Below are positions 12,013-26,980 of a stretch of 64,000 nt of DNA, in pieces (the first letter of the stretch is position 1; each line of letters begins with the position of its first letter). Made by a program: the position numbers and the translations under genes. Location: the NCBI GenBank assembly GCA_000828835.1, contig AP014633.1:248001-312000 (forward strand). Direction: 5' to 3'. The stretch comes from Thioploca ingrica (lineage in GTDB: Bacteria; Pseudomonadota; Gammaproteobacteria; Beggiatoales; Beggiatoaceae). A model generated the notes under the pieces. It saw only the letters and a program-made list of their open reading frames with translations, was not told the DNA's origin and made no database searches.

Positions 12013-12044
12013 ATTTATTGCTGGATACACCTACACTCATTTGA
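12009..12044 (+). pseudogene. Relic of a PIN-domain toxin (first 11 codons)
   Basis: ATGA overlap with the antitoxin stop, then MNLLLDTPTLI and a TGA stop. PIN toxins of this group begin MNLLLDTHTxxWW or similar, with the Asp as first metal ligand. So the toxin start is present, but the frame stops where a Trp (TGG) is usual and no further homologous sequence follows. The toxin gene is truncated or deleted. Confidence 0.6.
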
Positions 12045-12063
12045 TTTTTATAAGGAAATAAAT

Positions 12064-12273: not shown

Positions 12274-12539
12274 TAGAAATTGCCTTCAGCCCGGCATTTG
12301 AGCGTAACTTTCGTAGACGTTTCAAAGGTAGAACGTATTTGCAAGCCAGACTCTGGCAACGGGTAGAAATATTTCTTGAAAACCCGTTTGATTCTCGCTT
12401 AAGAACACATAAACTGACCGGCAGTTTGAAAGAATTATGGAGTTTTAGTGTCGAATACGATATACGAGTGGTTTTCTACTTTGTAACAGACGAAAAGGTC
12501 GTATTTGTAGACATCGGTACGCATGATGAAGTGTATTAG
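12270..12539 (+). CDS. RelE/YafQ-superfamily mRNA interferase toxin
   Basis: An 89-residue type II toxin of the RelE/ParE/YafQ fold, which cleaves mRNA on the ribosome or blocks gyrase. Family traits seen: the N-terminal strand MIEIAFSPAFERNFRRRF, basic helices, the HKLTGSLKELWSFSVEYDIR segment (residues 47-66, typical L.G.....sr.R.vy form) and the closing VVFVDIGTHDEVY, with a C-terminal HxxVY-like end. It appears intact and is paired with the 69-residue gene upstream. This is the one apparently complete module in the island. Confidence 0.85.
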   Translation: MIEIAFSPAFERNFRRRFKGRTYLQARLWQRVEIFLENPFDSRLRTHKLTGSLKELWSFSVEYDIRVVFYFVTDEKVVFVDIGTHDEVY

Positions 12540-12653
12540 CAATGATAGGTGTGCAGTGCACACCCTACAAGGCTCATAATATTCATCATTTAGTTTTTAA
12601 CTACGAAGCCAAATCATTAAATTATGATAAATAAATAAAATAAAGTGACGCTC

Positions 12654-14030
12654 TCAGCGAGGATATAACCGCATAAGTAATCCATGACGTGGTTTCATTG
12701 TCATCGTTACATCTCTCTCAATCAGGTAATTTGGTACTAATTTTAAAGTATAGCGTTGCGCAATTTGAGCGAGTAATAATGACATCTCCAACAACGCGAA
12801 ATGGTTACCTAAACAAAAACGAGGCCCTACGCCAAAGGGTAAATAAGCGTAACGATGTTTCACACTTTCTTCTCTAGTAGCAAAACGTTCTGGCCAAAAT
12901 TGCTCTGGGTTAATCCAAAAATCGGGATGGTGATGAATATTATAAAGACTAACGAATACGGTGCTTCCAGCCGGAAGAGGATAGCCGTTTATCTCCGTAT
13001 CTCGTAATACTAATCGTGCCACCAAAGGGGCTGGCGTATAGTGACGCAATACTTCGTCGACAACCTGTCGGGTATAAGTTAATTGTGGTAAATCTTCTAA
13101 GGTAGGCAAACGCTCAGCCAATACGGTTGCTAATTCATCTTGCACTCGCTGTAACACGAGCGGATGTTGGTCCAAAGCATACCAAAGCCAAGTCATGGCG
13201 GCCGCTGTGGTTTCATGACCGACTCCTAACAACGTGGCGACTTGGTCCCGTACTTGTTGCCGATTCATGGTTTCACCACTGATTTCATCCCGTGTTTGTA
13301 ATAAGAGTTCTAACAGATCATCATTCTGTTCACCACTCATTTGTCGTTGCTGAATGAGACGATAAATAATATCATCCAGCGTTTGTAAAGCTTGTTTAAA
13401 GCGTCGATTACGCGGTGTGGGCCAGTTAAGCGGAGGTAATAACGGATTTTTTAAACTGGTAGCGGCATGTTCGATTAAGATGGGTAAGACAGTCTGCAGG
13501 GTATCAAGAGGAGTGATCACGTCAACGCTAAACAAGGTACGACAAATAATGTCTAATGTCACCTTGACCATTTCCTCCAAAACATTGATGACTTCCCCAG
13601 GTGAATAAGTAGAATGCCACCGTTGCAACAACTGTTCGCCGGCGGTGGTCATGTGGATTGCCATCCTTTCTACCGGCCGTTTATGAAATAGCGGCTGTAA
13701 CATTTGTCGCTGGCGTTTCCAATCCTCGCCATAACTTTGTAATAAACCATTCCCTAAAATTAAAGCTAACCCCACCGGCTTTGCTTGTTGACTTAAAGAA
13801 CCAAAGGTTTCCAAATCGCGAATTAATATTTGCTCGGCCATATCTGGATGACACGCCACATAGACCGTTTTTGGTCCAAGTGAAAATCGTAACAAATCAC
13901 CGTAATCACGTTGACATTGTTGTAATGTCGTTAACAGATCCCGTCGACCGGCTAATAAATGACCAAGTAATTTAAATCTACGTGGACCTGGTACTTGGCG
14001 TTGGCGGAAATAAGAGCGATTAAACCACAT
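12654..14030 (-). CDS. Cytochrome P450
   Basis: A 458-residue soluble P450 monooxygenase using heme-activated oxygen. All signatures are intact: the I-helix oxygen motif GVGHETT (about residue 270), ExxR in EVLRHY, the PERF motif, and the heme loop FGVGPRFCLG with the ligand Cys near 406. No membrane anchor or fused reductase is visible, so it needs separate ferredoxin/reductase partners. It resembles bacterial fatty-acid or terpenoid hydroxylases, but the substrate cannot be read from sequence. It is transcribed away from the MarR gene with 125 bases between them and shares that control region, so it probably belongs to the same regulon as the operon that follows. Confidence 0.93.
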   Translation of the reverse strand: MWFNRSYFRQRQVPGPRRFKLLGHLLAGRRDLLTTLQQCQRDYGDLLRFSLGPKTVYVACHPDMAEQILIRDLETFGSLSQQAKPVGLALILGNGLLQSYGEDWKRQRQMLQPLFHKRPVERMAIHMTTAGEQLLQRWHSTYSPGEVINVLEEMVKVTLDIICRTLFSVDVITPLDTLQTVLPILIEHAATSLKNPLLPPLNWPTPRNRRFKQALQTLDDIIYRLIQQRQMSGEQNDDLLELLLQTRDEISGETMNRQQVRDQVATLLGVGHETTAAAMTWLWYALDQHPLVLQRVQDELATVLAERLPTLEDLPQLTYTRQVVDEVLRHYTPAPLVARLVLRDTEINGYPLPAGSTVFVSLYNIHHHPDFWINPEQFWPERFATREESVKHRYAYLPFGVGPRFCLGNHFALLEMSLLLAQIAQRYTLKLVPNYLIERDVTMTMKPRHGLLMRLYPR

Positions 14031-14089
14031 GATTATTCTCCAATTTTGTATATTTAGCTATAATAGCTTTACTTAATTTTGAGTGAGCG

Positions 14090-14111
14090 TATAATATGGT
14101 TACATATTATA
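14090..14111. promoter_or_regulatory. Perfect palindrome, probable MarR operator
   Basis: TATAATATG, four bases GTTA, then CATATTATA: two perfect 9-bp arms between the divergent P450 and marR genes. The word GCGTATAAT occurs at 14088 and again at 14115. MarR proteins bind palindromes of about this size, usually over their own promoter. The arms also look like -10 boxes, so binding would block transcription in one or both directions. Confidence 0.6.
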
Positions 14112-14155
14112 TTTGCGTATAATAATCGGTCGATGGACTCAGGTAAATACCTTAA

Positions 14156-14689
14156 ATGAATGAAATAACCAAACTGGCGGAAAAATTACAACGTGAAATC
14201 GCTTTAAATCGTGATTTTGTCTCTCAGGAGGAAACCGTGTTGTTATCTTTTATGCACACTTGGCAGCACTTAGATCGGTTGGGAAAGCTATTTTTTCCGC
14301 GCTTTGGCCTATCCGACGCGCAATTCAACGTGTTGATGGTTTTGTGGGATTACCGCGAGACCGGAATGCGCCAACACGAATTAGCTAGCCTTCTCATGGT
14401 TAATCGCGCTAGCGTTGGGGGAGTAATTGATCGGATGGAAAGACAAGTATTAGTCCAGCGACAACGCGATCCCGTGGATCGACGCTCCAACTACGTGCAT
14501 ATTACCGCTGCCGGAATCGCTTTGTTGGAGAAGATCAAACCCGTTTACTATGCTTTGTTCCCCCCCGCCTTTGCCAATTTGAATAGCCATCAGCAACAAG
14601 AGTTTTTCAAGCTGTTGGAACAATTTCGCCAGGGTATTTTGCAGGTAAACGAGCGCTTAAAGGAAAAAAACAATGAACCCAGCCAGTGA
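14156..14689 (+). CDS. MarR-family transcriptional regulator
   Basis: A 177-residue winged-helix regulator. The DNA-binding part lies near residues 60-125: LSDAQFNVLMVLWD, recognition region HELASLLMVNRASVGGVIDR, and wing RDPVDRRSNYVHITAAG with the conserved D-x-R-[RS] turn. Flanking helices form the dimer interface. It probably senses a small, perhaps lipophilic, ligand and controls itself, the operon it heads and the divergent P450. The next gene overlaps it by 17 bases, so they are translated from one message. Confidence 0.93.
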   Translation: MNEITKLAEKLQREIALNRDFVSQEETVLLSFMHTWQHLDRLGKLFFPRFGLSDAQFNVLMVLWDYRETGMRQHELASLLMVNRASVGGVIDRMERQVLVQRQRDPVDRRSNYVHITAAGIALLEKIKPVYYALFPPAFANLNSHQQQEFFKLLEQFRQGILQVNERLKEKNNEPSQ

Positions 14690-15779
14690 ATTAACCTTGA
14701 GCCGACCACTGTGGATTATTTCCCGTCGCCAAGACCTCCTCTGGTTTCACGGCTCAGTGATAGCGGGGTTGATATTGCTCGGCATTTTTCTTAACCTCGC
14801 GCCTTTAAATAGTGCCAATTACACCACCACCCACCCGGCTGTCATCCTGTTACTGCTGTGGGGAATATTTTTCGACGGCACTCACGTGTGGGGCACTTAT
14901 GCGCGTACTTACTTCGCCGCTCACGATACGCATTCCCGCTTGGGCTTACCCAGTCACCTGGCATGGGGATTCTTGCTGATTGGGCCAGGTTTAGCGATAG
15001 TGGATTATCTCTGGTTTATTCCCGAACCATCGCTAGTAGGACAAGCCGGTATCCTATTTCGACATTTCTTAGTGTTCGCTTACCTCTGGGCTTTCTGGCA
15101 TCTCATCCGTCAACACTACGGCATTCTGGTGCTCTACCGCCGCAAAGCCGGTGAAACCACCGGTCAATTGGATACCGTATTCTTGTGGCTCGGCAGTTTA
15201 TACCCCTACCTCCGATTTTCTCTGAGTGGGGCTTATTTACAGAGTCATTTACCCCATCCGTTACCGATGGCTTGGTTTGAGACCACTCGCTTCCTACTCG
15301 ATATCACTTTTTTCCTGAGTATGATGGGGTTAGCCGGCTACGCCTTCTACCAGTATCGTCATCAGCCTTTTCATTTCCAGCCTAAACACGGGTTTTTAGC
15401 GATTGTCGTCAGTTTTCATTGGCTGGTTTTTAGCTTACTTGACAATTTGCTGGTCATTACCGCCGTCCTGACGATTTTTCACAACCTGCAATACCATCGC
15501 ATCGTTTGGCAATATGAACGCGGATGTGGGCGCATTCCGATGGGTTCCATGTTTCGCTATCTCGGTTGGGGAATTTTATTTGGTTTATTCTGGTATGGTC
15601 CGCGTATCCTGGGCGTAGCGGTAGCAACAGACGATTTGATCCGCAATATTTTATTGGGATTTGGTTGGGGAATTGCCTTTCATCATTACTACACGGATTC
15701 ACGTATCTGGAAAGTGCGACGTTATCCAAGCATTGCGCAATCTCTGGATATCGGAGCTATACCGAATCATACCTCATGA
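14673..15779 (+). CDS. Polytopic membrane protein with conserved-looking histidine motifs
   Basis: A 368-residue protein with about eight membrane segments. I do not recognise the family with certainty. Notable are histidine clusters at the membrane edges: FDGTHVWGTYARTY (near residue 68), FWHLIRQHYGIL (near 140, H-x4-H), FHNLQYHR (near 270, H-x4-H) and FHHYYTDSRIWKVR near the end. Spaced His pairs in a membrane protein recall membrane diiron enzymes (desaturase, hydroxylase or Brp/Blh dioxygenase types), so an oxidative lipid enzyme is possible. AAAGGA precedes the ATG at 14673, inside marR. Its stop overlaps the next start (ATGA), showing tight coupling to the FAD oxidase. Confidence 0.7.
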   Translation: MNPASELTLSRPLWIISRRQDLLWFHGSVIAGLILLGIFLNLAPLNSANYTTTHPAVILLLLWGIFFDGTHVWGTYARTYFAAHDTHSRLGLPSHLAWGFLLIGPGLAIVDYLWFIPEPSLVGQAGILFRHFLVFAYLWAFWHLIRQHYGILVLYRRKAGETTGQLDTVFLWLGSLYPYLRFSLSGAYLQSHLPHPLPMAWFETTRFLLDITFFLSMMGLAGYAFYQYRHQPFHFQPKHGFLAIVVSFHWLVFSLLDNLLVITAVLTIFHNLQYHRIVWQYERGCGRIPMGSMFRYLGWGILFGLFWYGPRILGVAVATDDLIRNILLGFGWGIAFHHYYTDSRIWKVRRYPSIAQSLDIGAIPNHTS

Positions 15780-17071
15780 GTACTAATTCCATCTGGCACG
15801 AAGTCCCGCCGCTATTGACTGCGCCGCTACCTCCTCAAACTCGGCAACGTATCCATACTGTCGTCATTGGCGCTGGCTTAACGGGTTTATCAGCGGCTTA
15901 TCATTTGGCTCAACAACGAGAAGTCGTCGTGTTGGAGGCGGGAGAGATCGGCGCTGGTGCTTCAACGCGGAGTACCGGCATGTTGACCCCCGGCATTGCT
16001 CAAAATTTGACCGATTTAATTCGCCGAGTTGGTGCAAAAGAAGCTCAGCACCTGTATCAACAGACCTTACACGCTATTCAGTATGTGGTAACCCTGCTGG
16101 AACGAGAACAGATTGATTGTCAATTGCAGCTAAATGGCCAATTAATCGTGGCACAAGGGAAACAAGGACGTCATCGCTTAGCAGCTCAAGCTCAAGCTTT
16201 TGCAAAGTTAGAATTACCTTGCCAACCGCTGGATACTACGGGTTTGTGGCAACGGCTTCGATTAAGAGAAATACCTCCGGGACCAGCTCATTTACCAGCG
16301 GCGTTATATCTTCCGCTAGCTGGTAGCCTGCATCCTGGTCGGTTAGTGCATGGTTTAGCCGGTGCGGTTCAAATTCGGGGCGGCAAAATTTACCCGCATA
16401 CCCCCGTCGTGCACATCGGTAACCAACGACCGGCATCGTTATCCCTAGCGAATGGCAGCGAAGTGATCGCTGATCAAGTTATCCTAGCGACCGGTGGCTA
16501 TACACCCCAGTTAGGTCTGTTGCGAGGACGAATTCTACCGGTGCAATTGCAAGCGTTAGCTACGGAACCGTTAGCGACTGAGACGTTAGCTCAGCTTGGC
16601 TGGGCCGGTCGAGAGTGCATTACCGATTCGCGCCGTTTATTCAATTACTTTCGGCTAACAGCCGATCATCGTATCGTTTTTGGTGGTAGTTGGCCCAAAT
16701 ATGGTCAAACGCAGTCGGCACTCAACCCGGCGGATCTGGTATCGCGGCTAAATCATACTTTTCCTGCCGATGTTGCTTTACCGGTGGCGATGACTTGGAG
16801 CGGTATCATCGATTATGTGCTAGATACTTTGCCCATTATCACTCGTCTTCAGACTCATCCGGCGGTTATTTATGTCGGCGGTTGGTGTGGACATGGCATT
16901 GCGTTGAGTATCGCCGCCGGCGCTTGGGTGGCGCACTTAAGTGAATTAGGAACTTGGCCAGCTAATGTACCCCAATTTCGCCAGAAACCCCCGTTATTGC
17001 CTACGGAATGGGCACGACAACTCGGTTTTTGGGCTGGAATTCGGCTCATGTCGTTTTTGGATAATTCATAA
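15776..17071 (+). CDS. FAD-dependent oxidoreductase (DAO family)
   Basis: A 431-residue flavoenzyme of the D-amino-acid oxidase/glycine oxidase family, which oxidises amines or amino acids. Seen: the dinucleotide-binding motif VVIGAGLTGLSAAYHLAQ (about residues 29-46) with VVVLEAGEIGAGAS after it, VILATGGYTPQLG in the middle, and the C-terminal FAD segment YVGGWCGHGIALSIAAGAWVA. I start at the ATG at 15776, which overlaps the previous stop as ATGA; an open frame from 15524 would cover 250 bases of the preceding gene. In this operon an amine or amino-lipid substrate is plausible, which is inference. Confidence 0.88.
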   Translation: MSTNSIWHEVPPLLTAPLPPQTRQRIHTVVIGAGLTGLSAAYHLAQQREVVVLEAGEIGAGASTRSTGMLTPGIAQNLTDLIRRVGAKEAQHLYQQTLHAIQYVVTLLEREQIDCQLQLNGQLIVAQGKQGRHRLAAQAQAFAKLELPCQPLDTTGLWQRLRLREIPPGPAHLPAALYLPLAGSLHPGRLVHGLAGAVQIRGGKIYPHTPVVHIGNQRPASLSLANGSEVIADQVILATGGYTPQLGLLRGRILPVQLQALATEPLATETLAQLGWAGRECITDSRRLFNYFRLTADHRIVFGGSWPKYGQTQSALNPADLVSRLNHTFPADVALPVAMTWSGIIDYVLDTLPIITRLQTHPAVIYVGGWCGHGIALSIAAGAWVAHLSELGTWPANVPQFRQKPPLLPTEWARQLGFWAGIRLMSFLDNS

Positions 17072-17100
17072 TGAACTGAATGGTGTAAGGAGATTGAAAT

Positions 17101-19554
17101 ATGTCAAACCCCAGTGCCCTTAACCCAGAATTGCACCGCCTCTTAGAACTCTGTCACCTTGATTTTACCTGGGTGCGTGGTGAAGGTGTTTGGCTGTATG
17201 ACCAACAGGGGCGACGGTTTCTCGATGGTTATGCTCAATACGGTGCGGTCATCCTGGGACATAATTTTCCTCCCGTAGTCGCCGCACTTCAGGAAGCTTT
17301 AGCTGCGCAACAACCGGCAATGGTTCAGCCTTATCGCGCTCCTCATGCCGTCGCTCTGGCAGAAAAGTTAGTACAATTAGCACCCCCCGGTTTAAGTCGC
17401 TGTTTATTTACTACTTCGGGCGCAGAAACGGTGGAAGCCGCTATCAAATTAGTGCGAATGCGCACCGGTCGCTCGTTAATTCTCTCTTGCACTGGCTCTT
17501 ATCACGGTAAAACCATGGGCGCCCTCGCGGTATCAGGACAAGCGCGTTACCAAAACGATTTCGGTTTAGTGGCACCCGGGTTTGCCAAGGTTCCCTTCGG
17601 AGATAGTGAACAACTTGCTGCCTTTCTGCACCAGCATCATCAACAAGTGGCGGCGTTGTTTTTAGAACCGATTCAAGGCGAACGCGGCGTCATCATTCCA
17701 CCAGCCGGTTATTTGCGCACTGCCCGCGAACTTTGCAGTCAGTATGGCATCGCCTTCGTGCTCGATGAGATTCAAACCGGTTTAGGACGTACCGGGCAGT
17801 TATTTAATTGCGAATATGAAGACATTACCCCGGATCTGCTACTCCTAGCCAAAGGCTTAGGCGGTGGAATATTCCCGCTGGGGGCGATGTTGGTCAATGC
17901 TGAGTTTTGGGATAGCCGATTTGCGTTAAATCATTCGTCTACCTTTGCCAATAATAACTTAGCTTGTCGAGTGGGCTTGGCCGTGCTCAACTCGCTCACC
18001 GAGGAAGGTATCATGGCTCAAGTTGCTGCCAAAGGTACCCAGTTATTGAACGGTTTACAACAGTTAGCGCAACGCTATCCCCGCACCATCGCGGTAGTAC
18101 GCGGGCAAGGTTTACTGTGCGCCATCCAGTTACGTCCTCACGGTGCCAATGCCGGGCTGTTTCGTTCCTACTTAGAACATCAAGGGTTGTATGCCTACGC
18201 CGTCGCTTCACTGTTAGCAGAGCAATCGGCTTTGCTGGTGCTGCCAGCGCTGGGTGATAATCATGTGTTACGACTAGCTCCACCGCTGATTATCAGTGAA
18301 GCGGAATTGGAACAGGTTTTAAGTAGTCTGGAACAAGTATTTGCTATGCTGGAATATCATGCGACCGAGGTATTGGTACGAAGTCTGACTCGGGTTGCTA
18401 AAACCGATGCCGTTATTTCTCTATCGGCTCGACACAACGATCAGCAACCACTGCCAATCACGCTACCTCCCTTATCTCGCTGCCAAACTTCAGAACCCAG
18501 TTACGCTTTTATCATGCACTACACCCGACCTGAAGATATTTTAATCACCGATCCCACATTGACGCGGCTATCGTCTCAGGAATTACACCACTATATGTCT
18601 TATATGGCGCAAATGCCCGCCGGGGTGGTTTACGAAGTTCCGCCGTTACGTTCACCATGCGGTAATACCGCTAAAGGTTGGCTAATTGCTTTGGGAATGT
18701 TACCCGAAATGATGTTTCGTCGAGGTCGTGCTCAAGTTGTTGTAGAAATCAAGCGAGCGGTCGATCTCGCTGCTGAACTCGGTGCGCAAGTGGTTGGATT
18801 AGGTGCTTTTACCAGCACGTTTAGTCGTCGCGGGTTGGAGGTGATTGGTCGAGGGCCGGTGATTACCACCGGTAATGCGTTAACCGCTGGAATGGCAGTG
18901 GCGGCGCTTAATCAAATGTTAGCGCAGCACCAACTCGGTTTAACCACAGTCAAAATAGGTATCGTGGGTGCTAGTGGTTCGGTCGGTTCCTTGTGTTCCA
19001 AATTACTAGCGCGAGCTCACCCGGCTGCGATGATACTCATTGGTAATCCCAGCTCCGGTTTGGGTAATTTACAACGGTTATCTGCCCAGTTAGCGGCTAA
19101 TCATTCTGTTTCAATTGACTGTTCAACCGATTTAGCTAAGTTACGTCACTGTAACGTCGTGTTATCGGCTACTTCTGCTGGCCGCAGTGTGTTAGATAAG
19201 GTGCCGTTCCGTCATGGTACCCTTATTTGTGACGTTGCTCGTCCGCCAGATACTTCTGCACAGTTACGTCATCGTCCAGATTTGACTGTTATCGAAGGCG
19301 GCTTAGTGGCTTTACCTGATCCGACTTTGTGTTTTGGAACTGGTAATATTCAAGGGTTTCCCGCTGGTATTCAACTCGCTTGTTTGTCAGAGACAATTTT
19401 GCTGACTTTAGCTGGTGAAACCCAAGACCGAGGTATCGGTGATGATGTACCGTTGGCAGAAGTCGATAGGATAATGGCTTTGGCAGCCATGCACGGGTTT
19501 AAGTTGGCTGAGTTACCACGAACTGTGGGTGTCGCTGTGCTCTATCAATCATAA
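17101..19554 (+). CDS. Class III aminotransferase fused to an acyl-ACP-reductase-like domain
   Basis: An 817-residue two-domain enzyme. Residues 1-425 are a PLP aminotransferase of the ornithine/omega-amino type: SYHGKT near 133, LDEIQTGLGRTG with Asp222, and LLAKGLGGG with PLP Lys251. Residues 465-817 resemble cyanobacterial long-chain acyl-ACP reductase: LGAFTSTF (567), TTGNALTAG (589), the nucleotide-binding loop GIVGASGSVGS (620), and QLACLSETILL with Cys761, aligned by eye to the acyl-accepting cysteine of that family (ACFAEAMLL). Together the domains could reduce an acyl-ACP or acyl-CoA to an aldehyde and transaminate it to a long-chain amine. The order is opposite to PigE of prodigiosin synthesis (reductase first). 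Substrate and chain length are unknown. Confidence 0.88.
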   Translation: MSNPSALNPELHRLLELCHLDFTWVRGEGVWLYDQQGRRFLDGYAQYGAVILGHNFPPVVAALQEALAAQQPAMVQPYRAPHAVALAEKLVQLAPPGLSRCLFTTSGAETVEAAIKLVRMRTGRSLILSCTGSYHGKTMGALAVSGQARYQNDFGLVAPGFAKVPFGDSEQLAAFLHQHHQQVAALFLEPIQGERGVIIPPAGYLRTARELCSQYGIAFVLDEIQTGLGRTGQLFNCEYEDITPDLLLLAKGLGGGIFPLGAMLVNAEFWDSRFALNHSSTFANNNLACRVGLAVLNSLTEEGIMAQVAAKGTQLLNGLQQLAQRYPRTIAVVRGQGLLCAIQLRPHGANAGLFRSYLEHQGLYAYAVASLLAEQSALLVLPALGDNHVLRLAPPLIISEAELEQVLSSLEQVFAMLEYHATEVLVRSLTRVAKTDAVISLSARHNDQQPLPITLPPLSRCQTSEPSYAFIMHYTRPEDILITDPTLTRLSSQELHHYMSYMAQMPAGVVYEVPPLRSPCGNTAKGWLIALGMLPEMMFRRGRAQVVVEIKRAVDLAAELGAQVVGLGAFTSTFSRRGLEVIGRGPVITTGNALTAGMAVAALNQMLAQHQLGLTTVKIGIVGASGSVGSLCSKLLARAHPAAMILIGNPSSGLGNLQRLSAQLAANHSVSIDCSTDLAKLRHCNVVLSATSAGRSVLDKVPFRHGTLICDVARPPDTSAQLRHRPDLTVIEGGLVALPDPTLCFGTGNIQGFPAGIQLACLSETILLTLAGETQDRGIGDDVPLAEVDRIMALAAMHGFKLAELPRTVGVAVLYQS

Positions 19555-19567
19555 TACTACCTTTTCC

Positions 19568-19850
19568 TCATTTTAAGTGAGTCGTATGCGGTTAAAAATG
19601 ACATTAACCCTATTTGTAACGACAATTTACTCATTTTAAGTTAGGCATAAGTGGTTAAAAGTGAGGTGAACACGGTTTATATCGACAATTTTCTCATTTT
19701 AAGTGAGGCGTGATCGGTTAAAAGTGAGGTGAATTCGGTTTATATCGACAATTTTCTTATTTTAAGTGAGGTGTAAGCGGTTTAGTTAACGTAGATAAGG
19801 AACGGTGGGTGTCGCTGCGCTCTATCCACCCTACATTGGTTTAATTTGGA
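19568..19850. repeat. Tandem array of 63-bp repeats, left of the PIN cassette
   Basis: Units begin at 19568, 19631, 19694 and 19757, exactly 63 bases apart. The core words are TCATTTTAAGTGAGGCG, CGGTTAAAAGTGAGGTGAA and GGTTTATATCGACAATTTTC. The last unit diverges after GGTTTAGTTAACGTAG and runs into a short palindrome (19803-19836) and CATTGGTTTAATTTGGA. The same series recurs to the right of the PIN genes, offset by 943 bases. No gene is visible in this stretch. Confidence 0.9.
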
Positions 19851-19892
19851 TTACGCCATCATCTTTTAAACAACTATTTTAAACTAACCATA

Positions 19893-20360
19893 ATGAAACA
19901 ACAAACGATTTACCTAGATACTTCAGTTATTGGAGGTTGCTTTGATGAAGAGTTTGCCCCTTGGTCAAAAGGACTTATCAAAGATTTACAATTAGGTCAT
20001 TTCAAAGCAGTCGTATCAGAATTAGTGGCTGCTGAAATACAAAATGCTCCTTTACCGGTTCGCCAACAACTAGCGACAATTCTTGAACTTGATCATGAAT
20101 ATCTTATGGTCACCGAAGTGGCTACTACACTTGCTGATGTTTATCAACAGCGTCATATTTTGACTCCCAAATACTATGACGATGGATTACATATTGCCTT
20201 AGCTACAGTGGCACAAGTAGATTTACTGGTCAGTTGGAATTTTAAACATATCGTACACTTCGATAAAATTCGTTTATTCAAGATTGTTAATCTAGAACAG
20301 GGCTATAAAACTTTGTTAATTTATTCGCCTCGTGAGGTAACACATTATGAAGAATTTTAA
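19893..20360 (+). CDS. PIN-domain ribonuclease toxin
   Basis: A 155-residue PIN-fold protein, normally a metal-dependent RNase. It begins MKQQTIYLDTSVIGGCFDEE with the first metal-binding Asp near residue 9. It has an Ala/Glu helix with VSELVAAEIQNAP (catalytic Glu near 48), DDGLHIALATVAQVDLLVSWN with Asp residues near 102, and NFKHI near 118. All acidic positions of the fold appear intact. It overlaps the small gene after it by 14 bases. The pair is inserted between the aminotransferase-reductase gene and the SCP2-like gene of an otherwise continuous operon and is framed by direct repeat arrays, so it is probably an acquired addiction cassette. Confidence 0.85.
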   Translation: MKQQTIYLDTSVIGGCFDEEFAPWSKGLIKDLQLGHFKAVVSELVAAEIQNAPLPVRQQLATILELDHEYLMVTEVATTLADVYQQRHILTPKYYDDGLHIALATVAQVDLLVSWNFKHIVHFDKIRLFKIVNLEQGYKTLLIYSPREVTHYEEF

Positions 20361-20538
20361 GCTTAACACGCTGGAAATGACTCGCCAAATTCGTGATGAA
20401 CATTATCATTTATTGCAAGCTAAATCAGTTGCAGAAAGAATTGCTTTTTATCGTCAGAAGGCACAACAAATGTTAACTGAGGTTGAATCAATAAAAAAGT
20501 CAGGTAATCCTAATTCTAAGTTAGACATTATCGATTAA
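20347..20538 (+). CDS. Small antitoxin-like partner of the PIN toxin
   Basis: A 63-residue basic, helical protein (MKNFKLNTLEMTRQIRDEHY...). It overlaps the PIN gene by 14 bases; CGTGAGG about ten bases upstream could serve as ribosome-binding site. The arrangement toxin first, then small partner, is seen in a subset of PIN modules. The last nine codons and stop (SKLDIID) lie inside the first unit of the downstream 63-bp repeat array, so the C terminus may be repeat-derived. Antitoxin function is inferred from position only. Confidence 0.65.
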   Translation: MKNFKLNTLEMTRQIRDEHYHLLQAKSVAERIAFYRQKAQQMLTEVESIKKSGNPNSKLDIID

Positions 20539-20790
20539 AAGTGACATTAATCCTATTTAGAATGATAATTTTCTCCATCACAATGAGGCGTAAGCGGTTA
20601 AAAGTGAGGTGAATGTGGTTTATATCGATAATTTTCTCATTTTAAGTTAGGTATAGGCGGTTAAAAGTGAGGTGAATGTAGTTTATATCGACAATTTCCT
20701 AATTTTAAGTTAGGCGTAAGCGGTTTAGTTAACGTAGGATGATAAGAAACGGTTGGTGTCGCTTCGCTCTATCCACCCTACATTTGTTTA
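20511..20790. repeat. Tandem array of 63-bp repeats, right of the PIN cassette
   Basis: Units fall at about 20511 (degenerate), 20574, 20637 and 20700, again 63 bases apart, ending with GGTTTAGTTAACGTAGGATG, a short palindrome (20752-20784) and CATTTGTTTAATTTGGAG. Unit order and divergence match the left array one by one, for example the first unit of both reads TTAAAA-TGACATTAA. So the whole array was duplicated around the toxin genes rather than growing independently. Confidence 0.9.
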
Positions 20791-20805
20791 ATTTGGAGCG
20801 TTATT

Positions 20806-21147
20806 ATGACTCATTTAAATCAAGCTTTATATAATTTTATCGCTATTTATCATACCACTGAAAATTTAGTACTTGAACAAGAAGATTGGCAATGTGCTAT
20901 CAAGTTGCTTGCCACCGACAGTCAAGAGACGTTGACTTTACGCCTGGTAAATGGACGGGTAATAGAGATAGGTTATGATTTGAACCAAGAAGATTTGTTA
21001 GTTAAAGCAGATGAGGCAACTTTATTAGATATTCTTGAATTCCGCCGCGACCCAAATGAACCTTATCTCTTTGGTGAACTCACTATTCAAGGTGCTGAGG
21101 CGAATTTTTTACGTCTAGATTATGTAGTGACGCAATTATGTCAATAA
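20806..21147 (+). CDS. SCP2-like sterol/lipid-carrier domain protein
   Basis: A 113-residue single-domain protein resembling SCP-2 lipid-binding domains: an N-terminal helix, a strand-rich middle (ETLTLRLVNGRVIEIG), then ADEATLLDILEFRRDPNEPY and the pattern LFGELTIQGAEANFLRLDYV, which matches the G-x-hxhxGdxxxxxxL end of the family. It would present a hydrophobic substrate or intermediate to other enzymes. GGAG lies seven bases before the ATG. It overlaps the permease gene by 10 bases, so it sits inside the operon and probably carries the lipid made there. Confidence 0.65.
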   Translation: MTHLNQALYNFIAIYHTTENLVLEQEDWQCAIKLLATDSQETLTLRLVNGRVIEIGYDLNQEDLLVKADEATLLDILEFRRDPNEPYLFGELTIQGAEANFLRLDYVVTQLCQ

Positions 21148-22475
21148 CTAACATTAAACCACCTCAGACGATGACGCTTATTGCTACCGGTAGCGGGACA
21201 GCGATGGCTTCAGTCTGTGCAGTTGGATTATTACAGATTGAACAAACCTTGGGTGGGATAGGAGCAGTCGCTGCGATTAGCATCGCTGGGTTACTGTGTT
21301 TGGTGTTGGCACGTGCTTTGGCAAGATTGACAACCATTTTGCCGAGTGGGGCTGGTTTAATGGCTTTTTTATCTCGCGCTTTTGGTCGACCAGTCGGAAT
21401 TTTAGTGGTGGTGCCCTACTTGATCCTGATGTTGTTGTTAGTTGGATTTGAAGCTTTAATTGTGGGCGAGTTAGTGGCACGATTGTTACCGATTCCAGTT
21501 ATTGTGACGGCGGTTGGATTTCTAGTTTTGACCTGGGCAGTCTGTCGCGCCGGTATTCAGATCGGCTATTTAGCGCAAGCGGTGACAACTTGGGCACTAT
21601 TTGCCTGTCTGACCGGTATTTCATGCGTCACTTTGCTAACCGCATATCAACATGGAGAATTACTCGCGCACCTCTCTTCGGCTGTACCCACCTTCACTAC
21701 TTTTATTGCTGGGATAGGACAAGCTTTATTTCTTTTTATGGGCTTTGAACTGCTCACTGCGCATGTTGAAGTCGCTGATAAGCAATCCGTTGGACGAGCT
21801 TTGTCGGGCAGTGTTGGAGTGCTGATGTTATTTTATATTATCACGGCACTGGGGTTCGCTTGTTTGACTGAACTACCTCGAACTCACTCAGGTTTTGTGC
21901 TACCACAATTGCTCCTCGCCGAACAAACCGGTCGGTTAGACGTGATTCTGCTGATTATTATCACTGGCTTACTGGCTTCATTCTCTTCTTTTAATGGTGC
22001 GTTGTTGGCTTTATCTCGTTTTGCCTACGCACTAGCAAGTCAAGGTCTATTACCGCGTCAATTAGCCCAATTAGAATCACGCACGCTGACCGCTAGACCG
22101 GCATTACGCTGGTTATTGGGATTAACGGTTAGTTTCACGGTCATCATTTATCTTTTGTCTTGGTATCAAACTGTGATTTTGGCAGCCGCGATAGCAACCG
22201 CTTTAGTTTATGCCGCTGTGCTGTTGGCACGTGAACGAGTACCGTTTCGTGAAAGTGAACGCGCTTATCACCAACAACTAATGAGTGCGGCTCTCGCTCT
22301 CAGCTTGGTAGGATTAGGCGTGGGTGTTATCGTCACTGCTGAGAACGTTCGTCAATCGACTGTACTGCTGTTGGTTATGGCCTACGGTATTGCGGCTTTG
22401 CTCTTAACTAAGCGACATCATAAACAATCTCAACCGACACCCATTCGCAGAGGAAAACCTCAACATGCCAATTAA
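21138..22475 (+). CDS. APC-family amine/amino-acid permease
   Basis: A 445-residue inner-membrane transporter with about 12 hydrophobic segments. It begins like APC members (GSGTAMASVCAVGLLQIEQTLGG, then LARALARLTTILPSGAGLMA) and keeps the TM6-like stretch with GIGQALFLFMGFELLTAHVE. Substrates are usually amino acids or amines, exchanged or driven by protons. Its start overlaps the SCP2-like gene and its end overlaps the diiron gene by 11 bases. It may import an amine donor or export the product; neither can be told from sequence. Confidence 0.85.
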   Translation: MSITNIKPPQTMTLIATGSGTAMASVCAVGLLQIEQTLGGIGAVAAISIAGLLCLVLARALARLTTILPSGAGLMAFLSRAFGRPVGILVVVPYLILMLLLVGFEALIVGELVARLLPIPVIVTAVGFLVLTWAVCRAGIQIGYLAQAVTTWALFACLTGISCVTLLTAYQHGELLAHLSSAVPTFTTFIAGIGQALFLFMGFELLTAHVEVADKQSVGRALSGSVGVLMLFYIITALGFACLTELPRTHSGFVLPQLLLAEQTGRLDVILLIIITGLLASFSSFNGALLALSRFAYALASQGLLPRQLAQLESRTLTARPALRWLLGLTVSFTVIIYLLSWYQTVILAAAIATALVYAAVLLARERVPFRESERAYHQQLMSAALALSLVGLGVGVIVTAENVRQSTVLLLVMAYGIAALLLTKRHHKQSQPTPIRRGKPQHAN

Positions 22476-23322
22476 CACCAGCATTAAACATTGGGTTAAC
22501 AAAGTACCGTCACGACAATGGCAAAAAGCAGATCAGACCTTACTCCAAATGGGTACCACGTTACCAACAGCGATTGCCGAATCGCGACCACTAGCAGAAG
22601 TACACCGTTTAGATCTATCGCTGTTTGTCGTGTTTGAAGAAGCGGCGCTGCGTATCTCCGGTGCGTTGACGCGTAGCGCTCCGAATGCAGACGCCCTTAA
22701 CTTTTCTGCGCAACAAACGTTGGACGAAGCCCGTCATCGGGAAATTTTTTGGCAACGCTTAGGCGATTCTTGTCAAGCTTCAGGTCAAGCGCAAGCGACG
22801 ATCAGTGAAGCGATTCTAACGCCACCATTGCGGCGTTTTTTAGAACGCTGTTATGAGGTCGTGGATAGCGGCGAGTTTATCGAAGGTTTGGTGCTGATGA
22901 ATCTCGTCTTCGAGGGCATGGCTTATCCGCTATACGCTTATGAACGACGTTATTGGCAACCCGTTGATCCTTACCTCGCTGCCTTGGTCAATAGCGCTTT
23001 TATCGATGAATCGCGGCATGTAGCTTACGGTGCGTATATCGTCAACCAATTATTGCAGGGTGACAGTGCCCGCCAAGCCAAAGTTAGGAAACTGTGTCAA
23101 GAAGCCAGTTTGGCGATGGGCGAAATATTTACCTACTACATCCATAAATTTGTAAAATTATTCGATAGTGTTGCCCATTTGCATAAAGATTTATTTGCTA
23201 CGGCTGAATTTGCACCAGGTCGCTTAATCGCAGCAACCCCTTATCAGGAACAAATAGCAGTTATTCAGGCGAGTATTGCTAAACAACATACCGAACTGTT
23301 GGCACGAGCGGGATTAATTTAG
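22465..23322 (+). CDS. Ferritin-like diiron oxygenase
   Basis: A 285-residue four-helix-bundle protein with a complete set of carboxylate and histidine ligands for a dinuclear metal site: FEEA (Glu58/59), LDEARH (Glu88, His91), Glu residues at 140 and 150-160 (EFIEGLVLMNLVFEG), and DESRH (Glu182, His185). The paired E-x2-H motifs are those of R2-like oxidases and of N-oxygenases and related diiron enzymes. In this operon it could oxidise the amine made by the aminotransferase fusion or act on the aldehyde, as aldehyde-deformylating oxygenase does. The overall length fits, but the reaction is inference. Confidence 0.85.
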   Translation: MPINTSIKHWVNKVPSRQWQKADQTLLQMGTTLPTAIAESRPLAEVHRLDLSLFVVFEEAALRISGALTRSAPNADALNFSAQQTLDEARHREIFWQRLGDSCQASGQAQATISEAILTPPLRRFLERCYEVVDSGEFIEGLVLMNLVFEGMAYPLYAYERRYWQPVDPYLAALVNSAFIDESRHVAYGAYIVNQLLQGDSARQAKVRKLCQEASLAMGEIFTYYIHKFVKLFDSVAHLHKDLFATAEFAPGRLIAATPYQEQIAVIQASIAKQHTELLARAGLI

Positions 23323-23399
23323 ATAACCCTGACCGGTTTTTTTGGCGCGAGTAGGATTAATTTACTCACCTTACGCAATTTTTTTACGTTCTGAAAACA

Positions 23400-23482
23400 A
23401 TGTAGGTCGGACAAAGCGAAGCGTGTCCGACAAACTTCTAAAAAGATTCAGTTGGACACGCTTCGCTTTGTCCAACCTACAT
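23400..23482. repeat. Long inverted repeat (cruciform) inside the operon
   Basis: Two 29-bp arms, 23400-23428 and 23454-23482, are complementary with a single mismatch and enclose a 25-base loop. Each arm is one copy of the GGACA-AAGCGAAGCG-TGTCC palindrome variant also found at 29098. It fills the only sizeable gap (200 bases) in the second half of the operon. It could attenuate transcription or protect the message. Confidence 0.9.
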
Positions 23483-23521
23483 AAATTTTTTGAAACGGGT
23501 CAGATTTTTTGGGAGATTAAA

Positions 23522-23932
23522 ATGGATACTTATCATCGTTTTCATACTGGAGGAAGTTACTGGCTAATGCGCGCTGAACATTTAGCCGTCGTGTTGATTG
23601 GCATTGCCTTGGTGCTCTGGCACTGGTCAGAATTAAACTGGCTACGTTTCATCGCGGTATTTGTCATCACTGATTTATTGGGCTATTTACCTGGCGCAAT
23701 CGCTTATCGTCGCGCTGGCAGAGGTCAAATTGCACCGCTTTATCATTATCTTTACAACTTAACTCATTGTTATCTAACGTGGCTGCCGATTACCGCGTGG
23801 TGGGTATGGAGTATCGGGGGGTGGGAATGGGCGATGTTAGCGATACCGATTCATCTCTCTGGCGATCGCGGGGTATTTGGCAATGTGTTTAAACCAGTCT
23901 CCCTGCCTTTTGAGCCGGTAGCTGAGAAATAG
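23522..23932 (+). CDS. Small membrane protein of unknown function
   Basis: A 136-residue protein with about four hydrophobic segments (for example LAVVLIGIALVLWHW and FIAVFVITDLLGYLPGAIAY) and histidines near the membrane (YHYLYNLTHCYLTWLP, then IHLSGDRG). I do not recognise a family. I start at the ATG at 23522, preceded by GGGAG nine bases upstream; a longer open frame from 23342 runs through the inverted repeat and is not credible. Its stop is 2 bases before the next gene, so it is co-translated with it. Confidence 0.75.
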   Translation: MDTYHRFHTGGSYWLMRAEHLAVVLIGIALVLWHWSELNWLRFIAVFVITDLLGYLPGAIAYRRAGRGQIAPLYHYLYNLTHCYLTWLPITAWWVWSIGGWEWAMLAIPIHLSGDRGVFGNVFKPVSLPFEPVAEK

Positions 23933-23934
23933 CG

Positions 23935-24894
23935 ATGGAATTTGAACAATTTATTGATCATCCCTCCGGTTTTCTCGCGTTATCGCCACACAACCAGCGG
24001 TTTACAGTCACAAATTTACCCGGATTTATCGCTTATCGTGAGCAAGGTCAACATTGGATCAGCTTTGGCGGGGTTCATGCACCGGTTGATGCCCGAACTG
24101 AATTACTGCGACAGTTCTTGACTCAAGCTCAACAACAGCGGCGTAAGGTGTTGGCGGTGCAGGTTCGGCAAAATCAAGTACCACTGTTTCAACAATTCCC
24201 GGCGACTATCAATCAACTCGGCAGTAATTTCAGCCTCAGTTTAAAAAACTACAATTTAGCCGGAACGCGCAAGATGAAACTCCGTCATAAAATCAAACAA
24301 GCTCAGCAAGCCGGTTTACACGTAGTGGAGATTGGAGCAGAGTTACCCAAAGATGAGGCGACCTTTGCGCAGTTATTTGAAATCAGCAATCACTGGCTGG
24401 CGGCGAAGCGGAAAAAAGAGTTGAATTTCATGATTGGGGAAATTGGTACGCCGGCGGAAACACAACGCCGTATTTTTGTGACGCTTAACGCCAGCAACCA
24501 GCCGATTGGCTTTATCACTTATGTTCCCGCTTGGGGAGAACGTCCAGGTTACTTACATGATTTGACTCGCCGCTTACCCAATGCGCCACCTGGGGCGATG
24601 GAATTGTGTAATATCCGAGCGTTGCAACGTCTACAAGCCGAAGGCGTTGCTTGGTTACACTTCGGTTTTACGCCTTTTATCGTCGAAGCACCCGAATTAC
24701 CTGATGCCAATCGAATAATGGCGCGGTTAGTACGCTGGCTTCGTCAATATGGTCGGGTAATTTATCCCGCTGCCAGTCAAGCTGCCTATAAATTAAAATG
24801 GGGAATCGATAGCATCGAACCAGAATATATCATCGGTTTCCCTTTATCCTTTCGAGCGATTTGGGATTTGTTAGTTTTGACGAGATCCCTTTAA
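23935..24894 (+). CDS. DUF2156 / MprF-type GNAT-fold transferase
   Basis: A 319-residue cytoplasmic protein that resembles the DUF2156 catalytic domain of MprF-type lysyl-/alanyl-phosphatidylglycerol synthases. Landmarks: FRVTNLPGFIAYREQG-like N-terminal strands, the RKMKLRHKIKQAQQAG basic helix near residue 114, PIGFITYVPAWG, and LHDLTRRLPNAPPGAMEL, the RR...P.G.mE pattern typical of the family. The membrane flippase half of MprF is absent. Such enzymes use aminoacyl-tRNA or acyl donors to modify lipid headgroups or amines. Next to an amine-forming enzyme and a lipid kinase, an amide-forming role on a lipid is plausible but unproven. Confidence 0.8.
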   Translation: MEFEQFIDHPSGFLALSPHNQRFTVTNLPGFIAYREQGQHWISFGGVHAPVDARTELLRQFLTQAQQQRRKVLAVQVRQNQVPLFQQFPATINQLGSNFSLSLKNYNLAGTRKMKLRHKIKQAQQAGLHVVEIGAELPKDEATFAQLFEISNHWLAAKRKKELNFMIGEIGTPAETQRRIFVTLNASNQPIGFITYVPAWGERPGYLHDLTRRLPNAPPGAMELCNIRALQRLQAEGVAWLHFGFTPFIVEAPELPDANRIMARLVRWLRQYGRVIYPAASQAAYKLKWGIDSIEPEYIIGFPLSFRAIWDLLVLTRSL

Positions 24895-24908
24895 ATGTGG
24901 AGCTAAAA

Positions 24909-25805
24909 ATGCGCACTCGGATTATTCTCAATCCCACGGCGGGTGCAGGTCGAGCCGCTAAACGCTTACAAGCGCTACGGCCGTTGCTAGAAAATCATTG
25001 GCGTCATATCGATTGGCAACAGAGTCGCAGTGCTCAACATCTCACCGACCTCGCCACCGAAGCCGCTCAAGCCGGTTATGAGCAAGTTATTGTCGCCGGG
25101 GGTGACGGCACCGTCCATTTTGTCGCTAATGGATTAGTGGGGAGCCATACCGCTTTGGGCATTTTACCGCTGGGCACCGGTAATGATATCGCTGTGAACG
25201 TGGGGCTACCTCGAAATATCGAAGCGGCAGCTCGGGTGCTCATTCAAGGACATCGAGGCTACTTTGATGTCGTTCAAGCTGGAACAACTCGATTTTATTA
25301 CTGTGTACTGGGAATGGGTATGGATACGCTTGCCTTACAGCGAATCAATGCGTCATGCTTACCGCGAGGCAAATTGATGTACAGCGGCTATGCGCTACGC
25401 ACTTTGCTTGACTATCAATCCCAATGGTTAACCATTCAAGGCGATGGGATTCAATTTAGTGGGCTAGTGACCTTTGTTGCCGTAGCGAACACAGCGACTT
25501 ATGCGGGCGGGATTCCGATTGCACCGGGTGCGCGAGTAGATGATGGTTATTTGGATGTTTGCATCATTCCGGCGATGCCGCTGCTCAAAAGTTTGAGGTG
25601 CTTTGGTCGCTTGCTGAAGGCTAATCATGTGCATATGCCCGAAGTTTTATACAAACCGAGTACGACACTCCAATTAACCAGTAAATCTCCGTTGCCCATT
25701 ACCCTAGACGGAGAATTAACCGATTTAACCACCCCTTTAACAGTCAAGATATTACCCAAAGCGTTGTCAATTTTAGGGGGAACGCCACGAGGTCAATCTT
25801 TATGA
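24909..25805 (+). CDS. Diacylglycerol/sphingosine-kinase-family lipid kinase
   Basis: A 298-residue lipid kinase of the DagK/YegS/LCB5 family, which transfers ATP phosphate to a lipid hydroxyl. It begins MRTRIILNPTAGAGRAAKR, has the nucleotide motif VAGGDGTVH (near residue 60), LPLGTGNDIAVNVGLP (about 85) and the late DGELTD. I start at the ATG at 24909 with GGAG seven bases upstream; the longer frame from 24861 overlaps the previous gene. It overlaps the next gene by 4 bases. It may phosphorylate the amino-lipid made by this operon, as sphingosine kinases do for a long-chain base; that is inference. Confidence 0.9.
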   Translation: MRTRIILNPTAGAGRAAKRLQALRPLLENHWRHIDWQQSRSAQHLTDLATEAAQAGYEQVIVAGGDGTVHFVANGLVGSHTALGILPLGTGNDIAVNVGLPRNIEAAARVLIQGHRGYFDVVQAGTTRFYYCVLGMGMDTLALQRINASCLPRGKLMYSGYALRTLLDYQSQWLTIQGDGIQFSGLVTFVAVANTATYAGGIPIAPGARVDDGYLDVCIIPAMPLLKSLRCFGRLLKANHVHMPEVLYKPSTTLQLTSKSPLPITLDGELTDLTTPLTVKILPKALSILGGTPRGQSL

Positions 25806-26980
25806 ATCACACTCAAGACGCAGATGTTATCATCGTTGGTGCTGGCATTGCTGGCTCTGGGCTAGCTTGCGCGCTGGCACGTTATAATTTACGAATTTTA
25901 TTGCTAGAAAAACGGCGCCGTTTAGGCAGTATTCATCGTGGCGACAGCTTAGTACCAAAAAATACCGCCTTGTTAGCCAAGTGGGGAATCTTGGAGGCTT
26001 TCATTCAAGCCGGTGCTGAACCGATCACCCACATGGAATTACATCATCACCGTCATGGACGCATCTACCGCGCCCCGTTATTAGCCGGTTCTTCACCCTA
26101 TCTGGTGTTACCTCATGCCAAGATTGAAAAAACCTTATTAGAACAAGCGTTAGCCACCGGTAAAGTTAATTTAGTCCAACCCGCTAAAGCTTTGAATTTA
26201 ATTCATCGTGACCAACTAGCTATCGGTGGAATTCGTTACCAAGATGAACAAGGTACTCACGAAGTGTATGCGCCGATCGTCGTGGGTGCGGATGGCCATA
26301 AATCAATTATCCGCGAACAAATCGGTGTTGAAGTGGATGCTTATCACTATGACCATGCTTATTTTGGTTTAGAAGCGCAACGTCCCACTCACTACGAGAA
26401 CGCCATGCGGGTACAGTTACATCCAGAGGGTGGCGTGTTGTTGATGCCTCGACCTGACCGAGTTGGTGTAGGCATGTTAGTCGCCGCCAATAGTTCCAAT
26501 TACTGGTTAAAGTTACCGGATGCGGAACTCACTCAAATTCTAGTTAGTCGCGCACCAATTCTCGAAGGAATGCCGCTATACCGAGAAGGTTCCCATGTTT
26601 ACTCCCTAGTACGCAGCCATGCTAAACGTTATTGGCTTGAGGGTGCCGTCATCATTGGCGATGCGGCTCATACCACTAATCCAACTGCCGGGCAAGGAAT
26701 GGCGATGGCATTAAGCGATGCCGGTGCGCTGGCAGAACAAATTGGCCCGGTGCTGGCGGCGGGTGAGACTACCTTGACCAATGCCCTCACTCAATATGGA
26801 CAGCAGCAGTGGTCAGTTAATCAAAAGTTAGTTCGCTCTTCCCACCGACTAGCGCTAGTCTATGCCAAACGCGGTCCATTTTGGCATCGGTTAAAAACGA
26901 CCGGAATAAAATTATTGGCCAACCCGTTAGCAGTGAGCTTGACTCGTCCGGTGATTGCTTCGTTTTTGGAGAGTGCTTAA
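25802..26980 (+). CDS. FAD-dependent monooxygenase (UbiH/PHBH type)
   Basis: A 392-residue flavin monooxygenase. Motifs: VIIVGAGIAGSGLACALARY (residues 9-28) for FAD binding, VVGADGHKSIIREQIG (about 160, the DG motif for FAD/NADPH), and IIGDAAHTTNPTAGQGMAMA (about 282, the GD motif). No membrane anchor is obvious. It is the last gene of the operon, joined to the lipid kinase by ATGA. UbiH-like enzymes hydroxylate rings; others oxidise squalene- or geranylgeranyl-type lipids. The substrate here is unknown. Confidence 0.88.
   Translation: MNHTQDADVIIVGAGIAGSGLACALARYNLRILLLEKRRRLGSIHRGDSLVPKNTALLAKWGILEAFIQAGAEPITHMELHHHRHGRIYRAPLLAGSSPYLVLPHAKIEKTLLEQALATGKVNLVQPAKALNLIHRDQLAIGGIRYQDEQGTHEVYAPIVVGADGHKSIIREQIGVEVDAYHYDHAYFGLEAQRPTHYENAMRVQLHPEGGVLLMPRPDRVGVGMLVAANSSNYWLKLPDAELTQILVSRAPILEGMPLYREGSHVYSLVRSHAKRYWLEGAVIIGDAAHTTNPTAGQGMAMALSDAGALAEQIGPVLAAGETTLTNALTQYGQQQWSVNQKLVRSSHRLALVYAKRGPFWHRLKTTGIKLLANPLAVSLTRPVIASFLESA

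Follow-up and report, generated by a model that had tools for sequence, protein, structure and literature searches.

A 64,000-nucleotide stretch of the Thioploca ingrica genome (contig AP014633.1, positions 248,001 to 312,000; here called the window, whose numbering is used throughout) encodes, at positions 17101-19554, a single polypeptide in which an aminotransferase is fused to a thioester reductase (AT-TR fusion). We propose, with a probability of roughly 0.7 and on the grounds of sequence, a modelled fold and analogy with characterised systems, that this fusion is an amine synthase of the TamH type that feeds an azoxy-type nitrogen-nitrogen (N-N) chemistry and leads to a long-chain metabolite of the azoxy type. 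The chemistry of the fusion is already known from TamH; what is new is its gene setting, a Gram-negative azoxy-type gene set together with a 368-residue membrane protein. An earlier interpretation of the locus, made from the DNA letters alone (the sequence-only reading), is partly supported as a whole.

The fusion has the features of a TamH-type amine synthase

The open reading frame (ORF) of the fusion begins with ATG, runs on the forward strand and encodes 817 residues without any internal stop. Pfam Aminotran_3 covers residues 23-413 (E 2.7e-96), and a comparison of the C-terminal half (window 18451-19551) with solved structures returned PigE (4ppm, E 3.1e-22) and a cyanobacterial acyl-ACP reductase (AAR; 6jzq, E 4.5e-7), where ACP denotes acyl carrier protein. 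The sequence-only reading had held that the active-site motifs of both halves are intact, and the alignments bear this out: Lys251, the predicted pyridoxal phosphate (PLP) lysine, is invariant in all eight aminotransferase halves aligned, and the glycines of the nucleotide-binding loop (G623, G626 and G629) as well as Cys761 are invariant in two alignments of reductase halves (7/7 and 27/27 rows, the window row being contained in both). In the structure-sequence alignment Cys761 (residue 311 of the C-terminal half) pairs with Cys294 of AAR 6jzq, which confirms its assignment as the counterpart of the acyl-accepting cysteine of AAR. Modelled with AlphaFold2 (pLDDT 90.9), the reductase half superposes on AAR 6jzy with a Foldseek E of 3.0e-22 and, in VIA, with a Z of 38.3 (2.6 A over 328 residues at about 20% identity). 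The next-best group in VIA was formed by terminal domains of the carmabin pathway (Z 31.7-33.2), and among the matches listed beyond that group Z did not exceed 16.5. In both its overall fold and its equivalent of Cys294 the C-terminal half thus resembles AAR, and a fit to another reductase family lacking the cysteine and loop geometry, which the sequence-only reading had named as the outcome that would speak against it, was looked for and not found.

A second Thioploca genome, a metagenome-assembled genome (MAG), carries a full-length copy of the fusion with 86% identity, which rules out an artefact of assembly as its source. With an N-terminal class III aminotransferase that has its PLP lysine, and a C-terminal AAR-like reductase that has GxxGxxG and the cysteine, the protein shows the sequence features of TamH-type AT-TR fusions. 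Given the conserved residues, the alignment with AAR and the AAR-like modelled fold, both the observation of the fusion and its catalytic reading stand. The relay from acyl thioester through aldehyde to amine in one chain, as first proposed, is therefore a well supported prediction, which draws on the motifs, the modelled AAR fold and the analogy with PtTamH, a characterised enzyme of the same domain order. According to the accessible part of the original report, PtTamH from Pseudoalteromonas tunicata belongs to tambjamine YP1 biosynthesis, combines a class III transaminase at the N-terminus with an AAR-like thioester reductase, bearing GxxGxxG and Cys887, at the C-terminus, converts, together with TamA, a C12 acid on ACP to the C12 amine using NADH and L-Glu, and rejects free C12-CoA (Richardson 2022, PMC9594044). 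The novelty that had been claimed for the fusion chemistry accordingly falls away, since PtTamH was described in 2022.

Relatives of VlmO, VlmB and VlmA accompany the fusion

Downstream of the fusion lie relatives of three enzymes known from azoxy clusters of the vlm/ady type (Table 1). In the accessible part of a review, VlmO is described as the hydrazine-forming membrane enzyme, whose D51, H82, H110 and D114 were judged to be iron ligands; VlmA is said to couple serine from tRNA to the alkylhydroxylamine, and VlmB to yield the azoxy group (PMC11705231). The window VlmO relative shares 41.9-48.1% identity with proteins encoded on 11 Streptomyces plasmid records, and D51, H82, H111 and D115 (window numbering, the last two shifted by one residue from the reported positions) are invariant in all 13 VlmO relatives aligned. 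Its weak, below-cut-off DUF4260 match (E 0.017) has a parallel in the azodyrecin paper, where a VlmO relative also matched DUF4260 weakly (PMC9379638). The listed ORF of this gene starts at 23342 with TTG, and the methionine at 23522 fits the relatives. On the same 11 Streptomyces records, the window diiron protein matches genes annotated 'VlmB-like protein', and its residues E58, E88, H91, E150, E182 and H185 recur unchanged in every one of the 13 diiron proteins aligned.

The third protein, VlmA-like, matches Pfam LPG_synthase_C (E 8.4e-47) and shares 35-39% identity with the DUF2156 proteins at five loci that carry VlmO. Since the LPG_synthase_C and diacylglycerol kinase (DAG kinase) families are best known from lipid metabolism, one may also picture an aminolipid route, in which the LPG_synthase_C protein, being MprF-like, would aminoacylate the alkylamine directly and the lipid-kinase-like protein would phosphorylate the lipid, with no N-N bond being made. 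However, the MprF-type match scored 91 bits against a cut-off of 600, the resemblance being instead to the DUF2156 proteins of VlmO/VlmB loci, and such a route would give no account of why relatives of VlmO and VlmB, metal ligands included, are conserved; we regard it as decidedly unlikely. The neighbouring genes point to an azoxy-type N-N pathway and not to lipid assembly, and with this the earlier idea of a new starting point for bacterial lipids loses its footing.

Among these Streptomyces loci, L118 has genes for a DAG kinase, an MmgE/PrpD protein, a seryl-tRNA ligase, a DUF2156 protein, an acyl-CoA-dehydrogenase-type protein and a VlmO relative, and also a flavin reductase, a VlmB-like protein, an APC permease and a PLP decarboxylase. 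This is presumably the layout known from valanimycin. Beside VlmO and VlmB, Streptomyces loci L119 and L122 have a separate class III aminotransferase and an aldehyde dehydrogenase; for azodyrecin, the alkylamine was proposed to arise from dehydrogenase Ady2 and transaminase Ady4 (PMC9379638). On plasmid pBPHY01 of Paraburkholderia phymatum (L037), an ACP-aminotransferase-reductase fusion is surrounded by an AMP-binding ligase, a P450, VlmO and VlmA relatives, a DAO-family protein and an acyl-CoA-dehydrogenase-type protein (35% identical to that of L118). In the tree described below this fusion stands outside the clade of the window, in an unsure position with long branches. AT-TR fusions thus adjoin VlmO and VlmA relatives in two clades, which argues for a functional link between them.

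A VlmO relative with 31% identity and all four metal residues was also observed on a plasmid of Pseudoalteromonas rhizosphaerae (L121, 10001-10438), where it adjoins MMPL and outer membrane lipoprotein-sorting genes and a gamma-mobile-trio recombinase.

An eight-gene set recurs in a clade of related loci

Among 57 genomes searched as relatives, that of T. ingrica included, the listed matches spanned the whole fusion only in that genome and in G001, which belongs to the same genus; in the others the best listed matches were confined to the aminotransferase half. In a sample of 398 genomes from the phylum, seven, again including that of T. ingrica, had the reductase half at E 1e-8. A scan of genome contigs with the reductase-half alignment, from which the best 80 of 554 relatives were kept, gave 79 loci, and in 56 of these aminotransferase and reductase share one open frame in the order of the window. 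In L107 the two are adjacent and not in one open frame, and at 22 loci no adjacent aminotransferase was seen within the available sequence; these 23 loci, having no single fused frame, were omitted from the tree. The closest locus among the best 80 of the 554 relatives was L039, on a Thioploca MAG contig. A tree of 37 rows (the window, five plasmid loci and 31 of the 79 from the scan, the remaining fusions being omitted) places the fusions of the window, L039-L045 and L057 (n = 9) on one side of a branch with an SH-aLRT of 100; the method was a quick one, several branches are long and some rows have an unusual composition. In this tree the fusion of L041, which is titled as a Klebsiella pneumoniae MAG, is nearest to that of a deltaproteobacterial MAG, so that the label is probably wrong.

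Searching with the window genes (tblastn), we found a recurring set of eight: the 368-residue membrane protein, the DAO-family enzyme, the fusion, the SCP2-like protein, the APC permease, the diiron protein, the small membrane protein and the LPG_synthase_C protein. All eight occur together in L040 (gammaproteobacterial MAG), L057 (Lysobacterales MAG) and L042 and L044 (Myxococcota MAGs), and in part in L041, L043 and L045. They are consecutive in L040, flanked by genes that by eye read as housekeeping. Several loci with the set add a DAG-kinase-like protein and a UbiH-type enzyme dependent on flavin adenine dinucleotide (FAD). The contigs of L039 and L043 end short of the VlmO position. A VlmO profile was met in only one of 369 sampled genomes of the class, that of T. 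ingrica itself, which marks the set as rare.

The occurrence of VlmB relatives bears on the last step. VlmB relatives accompany VlmO in six of the seven clade loci that show VlmO and in all four Streptomyces loci, and the accessible part of the review presents VlmB as the maker of the azoxy group (PMC11705231). Both points speak against an N-N pathway whose end product is a hydrazine, hydrazone or azo compound and whose last oxidase is the DAO-family enzyme, the diiron protein acting elsewhere, e.g., on the alkyl chain. Such an ending would fit the presence of DAO in six of nine clade loci and in L037, where no VlmB relative was found, and the occurrence of diiron relatives alongside fusions without VlmO, but we consider it unlikely.

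A 368-residue membrane protein as a candidate replacement of VlmH

Azoxy formation requires an alkylhydroxylamine. VlmH-type proteins are encoded in all five Streptomyces/Paraburkholderia loci (L037, L118, L119, L120 and L122, two of which supplied the queries) versus none of the nine loci of the window clade. The 368-residue membrane protein has the inverse pattern, being found in none of those five loci versus seven of the nine; the contigs of the two clade loci that miss it, L041 and L043, end inside the cluster. L121 has neither protein. On account of this inverse pattern the 368-residue protein is the first candidate for the N-oxygenase. The correlation spans only a small number of clusters, and the step could also be carried out by an enzyme whose gene lies elsewhere. 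Residues D68, H71, H143, H148, H270, N271, H338 and D342 are invariant in seven aligned rows.

The protein belongs to no Pfam or NCBIfam family, its sequence profile retrieved nothing from the PDB up to E 10, and it had no match among plasmids. Searches with its model (pLDDT 86.3) gave a best Foldseek E of 0.17 and a best VIA Z of 6.7 over 88 residues, which is the chance range for helical proteins; for this modelled fold the outcome is a lack of match and not evidence of a new fold. Extending the proposal, we suggest only tentatively, and with some doubt, that sulfur-oxidising Gammaproteobacteria and Myxococcota may make long-chain azoxy compounds through a Gram-negative branch of the pathway, where a TamH-type fusion would give the amine and this membrane protein, as a metalloenzyme of a new family, would replace the flavin N-hydroxylase VlmH/VlmR.

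Proposed pathway and points that weigh against it

In the pathway that we propose, an acyl chain would pass from acyl-ACP (or acyl-CoA) to Cys761 of the reductase domain, and its reduction there by NAD(P)H would yield the fatty aldehyde, which the N-terminal PLP domain would transaminate to a primary alkylamine. After N-hydroxylation, for which the 368-residue protein is the first candidate, the VlmA-like protein might O-aminoacylate the alkylhydroxylamine from an aminoacyl-tRNA, the VlmO-like protein might rearrange the product to an alkyl hydrazino acid and the VlmB-like diiron protein might oxidise this to the azo or azoxy stage; the DAO-family flavoenzyme may act as an additional oxidase. 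Since some oxidases of N-substituted amino acids belong to the DAO family, a hydrazino acid would suit this enzyme as substrate; its NCBIfam matches, among those listed, were below cut-off. Every catalytic step is inferred, and so are the length of the chain, the choice of amino acid and the product, the direct basis being sequence, motifs, modelled fold and the conserved gene set.

Several observations weigh against this proposal. Neither VlmH nor VlmR was found in any of the nine clade loci; elsewhere in the T. ingrica genome the single VlmH match was weak (E 1.1e-5, at 27% and along only a part of the query) and VlmR had none, in a search without positive control. Because the pair was searched for and not found, we view the locus as a variant that would work like an azoxy cluster and not as a plain member. 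The window diiron protein is only 25-27% identical to four Streptomyces VlmB-like proteins, the window APC permease did not match Streptomyces APC proteins at 1e-3, and a search for VlmB relatives gave none in the 8.6 kb of L045 and in 25 kb of L037. A scan of 18 neighbouring proteins brought up neither a recognisable ACP nor an acyl ligase. Finally, a diiron relative and a fusion occur without VlmO or VlmA in five betaproteobacterial loci (two of Massilia and one each of Jeongeupia, Undibacterium and an Oxalobacteraceae MAG; APC match in 3/5), so part of the gene set serves other pathways. On the other side stand the VlmO relative with its four iron residues, the VlmB-type diiron protein and the VlmA-type LPG_synthase_C protein, which the locus shares with azoxy clusters.

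As TamH and PigE are the characterised relatives of the fusion, condensation of the amine with a bipyrrole aldehyde, as in a tambjamine- or prodiginine-like pathway, also deserves mention. Yet no pyrrole-unit, PigD-like or condensing enzyme, and no pyrrole or bipyrrole gene of the kind adjacent in tambjamine clusters, appeared among the 18 neighbouring proteins in the Pfam scan, which did not extend to the rest of the genome, whereas such genes are annotated around the PigE-type loci L027-L029; the window fusion, moreover, scores 508 bits with the NCBIfam PigE model, whose cut-off is 850. We hold this pathway to be very improbable.

Other fusion loci

Betaproteobacterial locus L072 (6673-16537) combines an AT-TR fusion, an APC match, a diiron relative and an FA_desaturase-Metal_hydrol fusion protein, without VlmO or VlmA, and has ThiS and ThiF-rhodanese genes upstream (Pfam run on L072 only). 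This would be a different amine pathway, in which sulfur is perhaps involved. Diiron relatives also accompany the fusions of L069, L078, L102 and L109. On a Haematobacter plasmid (L025, 10618-14353) the AT-TR fusion is immediately followed by a gene whose annotation names the glycine/sarcosine/betaine reductase selenoprotein B family, with Pfam GRDB just below cut-off. A 1395-residue protein on a Leisingera plasmid (L038, 10624-14811) consists of aminotransferase, reductase and an extra C-terminal part, and is neighboured by an MMPL transporter, an outer membrane lipoprotein-sorting gene and pabB. In gammaproteobacterial loci L030 (7690-9765, 691 residues) and L031 (8171-10231, 686 residues), a C-terminal reductase is joined to a further, N-terminal part.

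Gene organisation of the locus

Table 1. Genes at and around the fusion in the window.
Feature	Position	Strand	Remark
Cytochrome P450, divergent	12654..14030	-	accessory at most
MarR-type regulator, first in gene row	14156..14689	+	
368-residue multi-pass membrane protein	14673..15779	+	candidate N-oxygenase
DAO-family FAD enzyme	15776..17071	+	possible hydrazino acid oxidase
Aminotransferase (about residues 1-420) - thioester reductase (about residues 451-817) fusion	17101..19554	+	predicted PLP Lys251, GxxGxxG 623-629, Cys761
Small protein, SCP2-like	20806..21147	+	sub-threshold Alkyl_sulf_C / SCP2 matches; conserved behind fusion
APC-superfamily permease	21138..22475	+	
VlmB-like diiron protein	22465..23322	+	E58, E88, H91, E150, E182, H185
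VlmO-like membrane protein	23522..23932	+	D51, H82, H111, D115
VlmA-like LPG_synthase_C (DUF2156) protein	23935..24894	+	expected aminoacyl-tRNA-dependent transferase
DAG-kinase-like protein	24861..25805	+	generic lipid-kinase family; accessory
UbiH-type FAD monooxygenase	25802..26980	+	accessory

The DAO gene overlaps with its start the stop of the gene for the 368-residue protein, and upstream of the MarR gene a repeat search detected two short direct-repeat families and no inverted repeat. The DAG-kinase-like protein is 28% identical to the kinase at the VlmJ position of L118. Relatives of the UbiH-type enzyme occur in L042, L044 and L045; it was considered as core N-hydroxylase and set aside, as L040 and L057 gave no match. 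The P450 likewise had no match in the other eight clade loci, its sole other match (25%) being in L037, and since it is not found in the related clusters of the clade it would be accessory at most and was dismissed as a core enzyme.

Between the fusion and the SCP2-like gene, which are directly consecutive in L040 and L057, window positions 19555-20805 hold a PIN-domain gene (19893-20360) flanked by two arrays of a 63-bp tandem repeat (19563-19782, 3.5 copies; 20564-20725, 2.6 copies). At the corresponding position, the second Thioploca genome has two similar genes with the same starting residues (L022, 5796-7018), where the contig ends.

G+C content is 43.5-48.4% in the four 4-kb steps of 12001-28000 and 34.6% and 40.1% in the flanks; as other steps of the window reach 47.4%, base composition makes only a weak case for a foreign origin, which we did not adopt. 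A phage origin was also rejected: 36 records of a phage collection matched the fusion, none over 80% of the query, the five listed covered the aminotransferase half only, and a search of viral contigs gave no relative.

Comparison with known systems

Azoxy natural products are few in number and have been studied mainly in Streptomyces. If our proposal is right, the conserved azoxy-type set would explain the purpose of the fatty-amine fusion, a TamH-type catalyst would be at work in an unrelated pathway, and reactive N-N chemistry would extend beyond actinobacteria to other phyla, in Thioploca-like bacteria and Myxococcota. A published survey of genomes for azoxy clusters was restricted to actinobacteria (PMC9379638), and among the papers listed in searches of the open literature, with most subscription papers outside its scope, no title or beginning of an abstract describes one in other bacteria, though several of these papers mention azoxy (for instance PMC12397197 on Myxococcota and PMC12154687). 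One membrane protein without a family is thereby singled out as a directly testable candidate for the amine N-oxygenase.

With cyanobacterial AAR (6jzy, 6jzq) the reductase half shares the fold and the equivalent of Cys294, but AAR is free-standing, was solved in complex with aldehyde-deformylating oxygenase and is only about 20% identical. PigE of prodigiosin synthesis, with which alone the sequence-only reading had compared the fusion, is an incomplete comparison, as the exact domain order is that of PtTamH. PigE is reported to reduce the thioester first and transaminate second and, in the accessible text, has the reductase domain first (PMC8341465). Both domain families are shared, and 4ppm is the best solved-structure match for each half of the fusion, whereas the domain order is reversed, the neighbours differ and the score stays below the NCBIfam cut-off, so the fusion falls outside the PigE family. 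PtTamH, compared here by its description and not by alignment, agrees in domain order, GxxGxxG and catalytic cysteine; it differs in length (941 versus 817 residues) and in its partners, TamA (ligase-ACP) and pyrrole genes, no VlmO, VlmA or VlmB gene being mentioned in the accessible part of the report (PMC9594044). The fusion of L037 has an ACP built in, unlike the window fusion with its aminotransferase and reductase. From the azodyrecin (ady) and valanimycin (vlm) clusters the window set differs by its Gram-negative hosts and by having the 368-residue membrane protein and DAO where VlmH/VlmR were not found. In common with them it unites relatives of VlmA, VlmB and VlmO, and the two activities assigned to Ady2 and Ady4 in alkylamine formation would, by analogy, be fused in the window protein.

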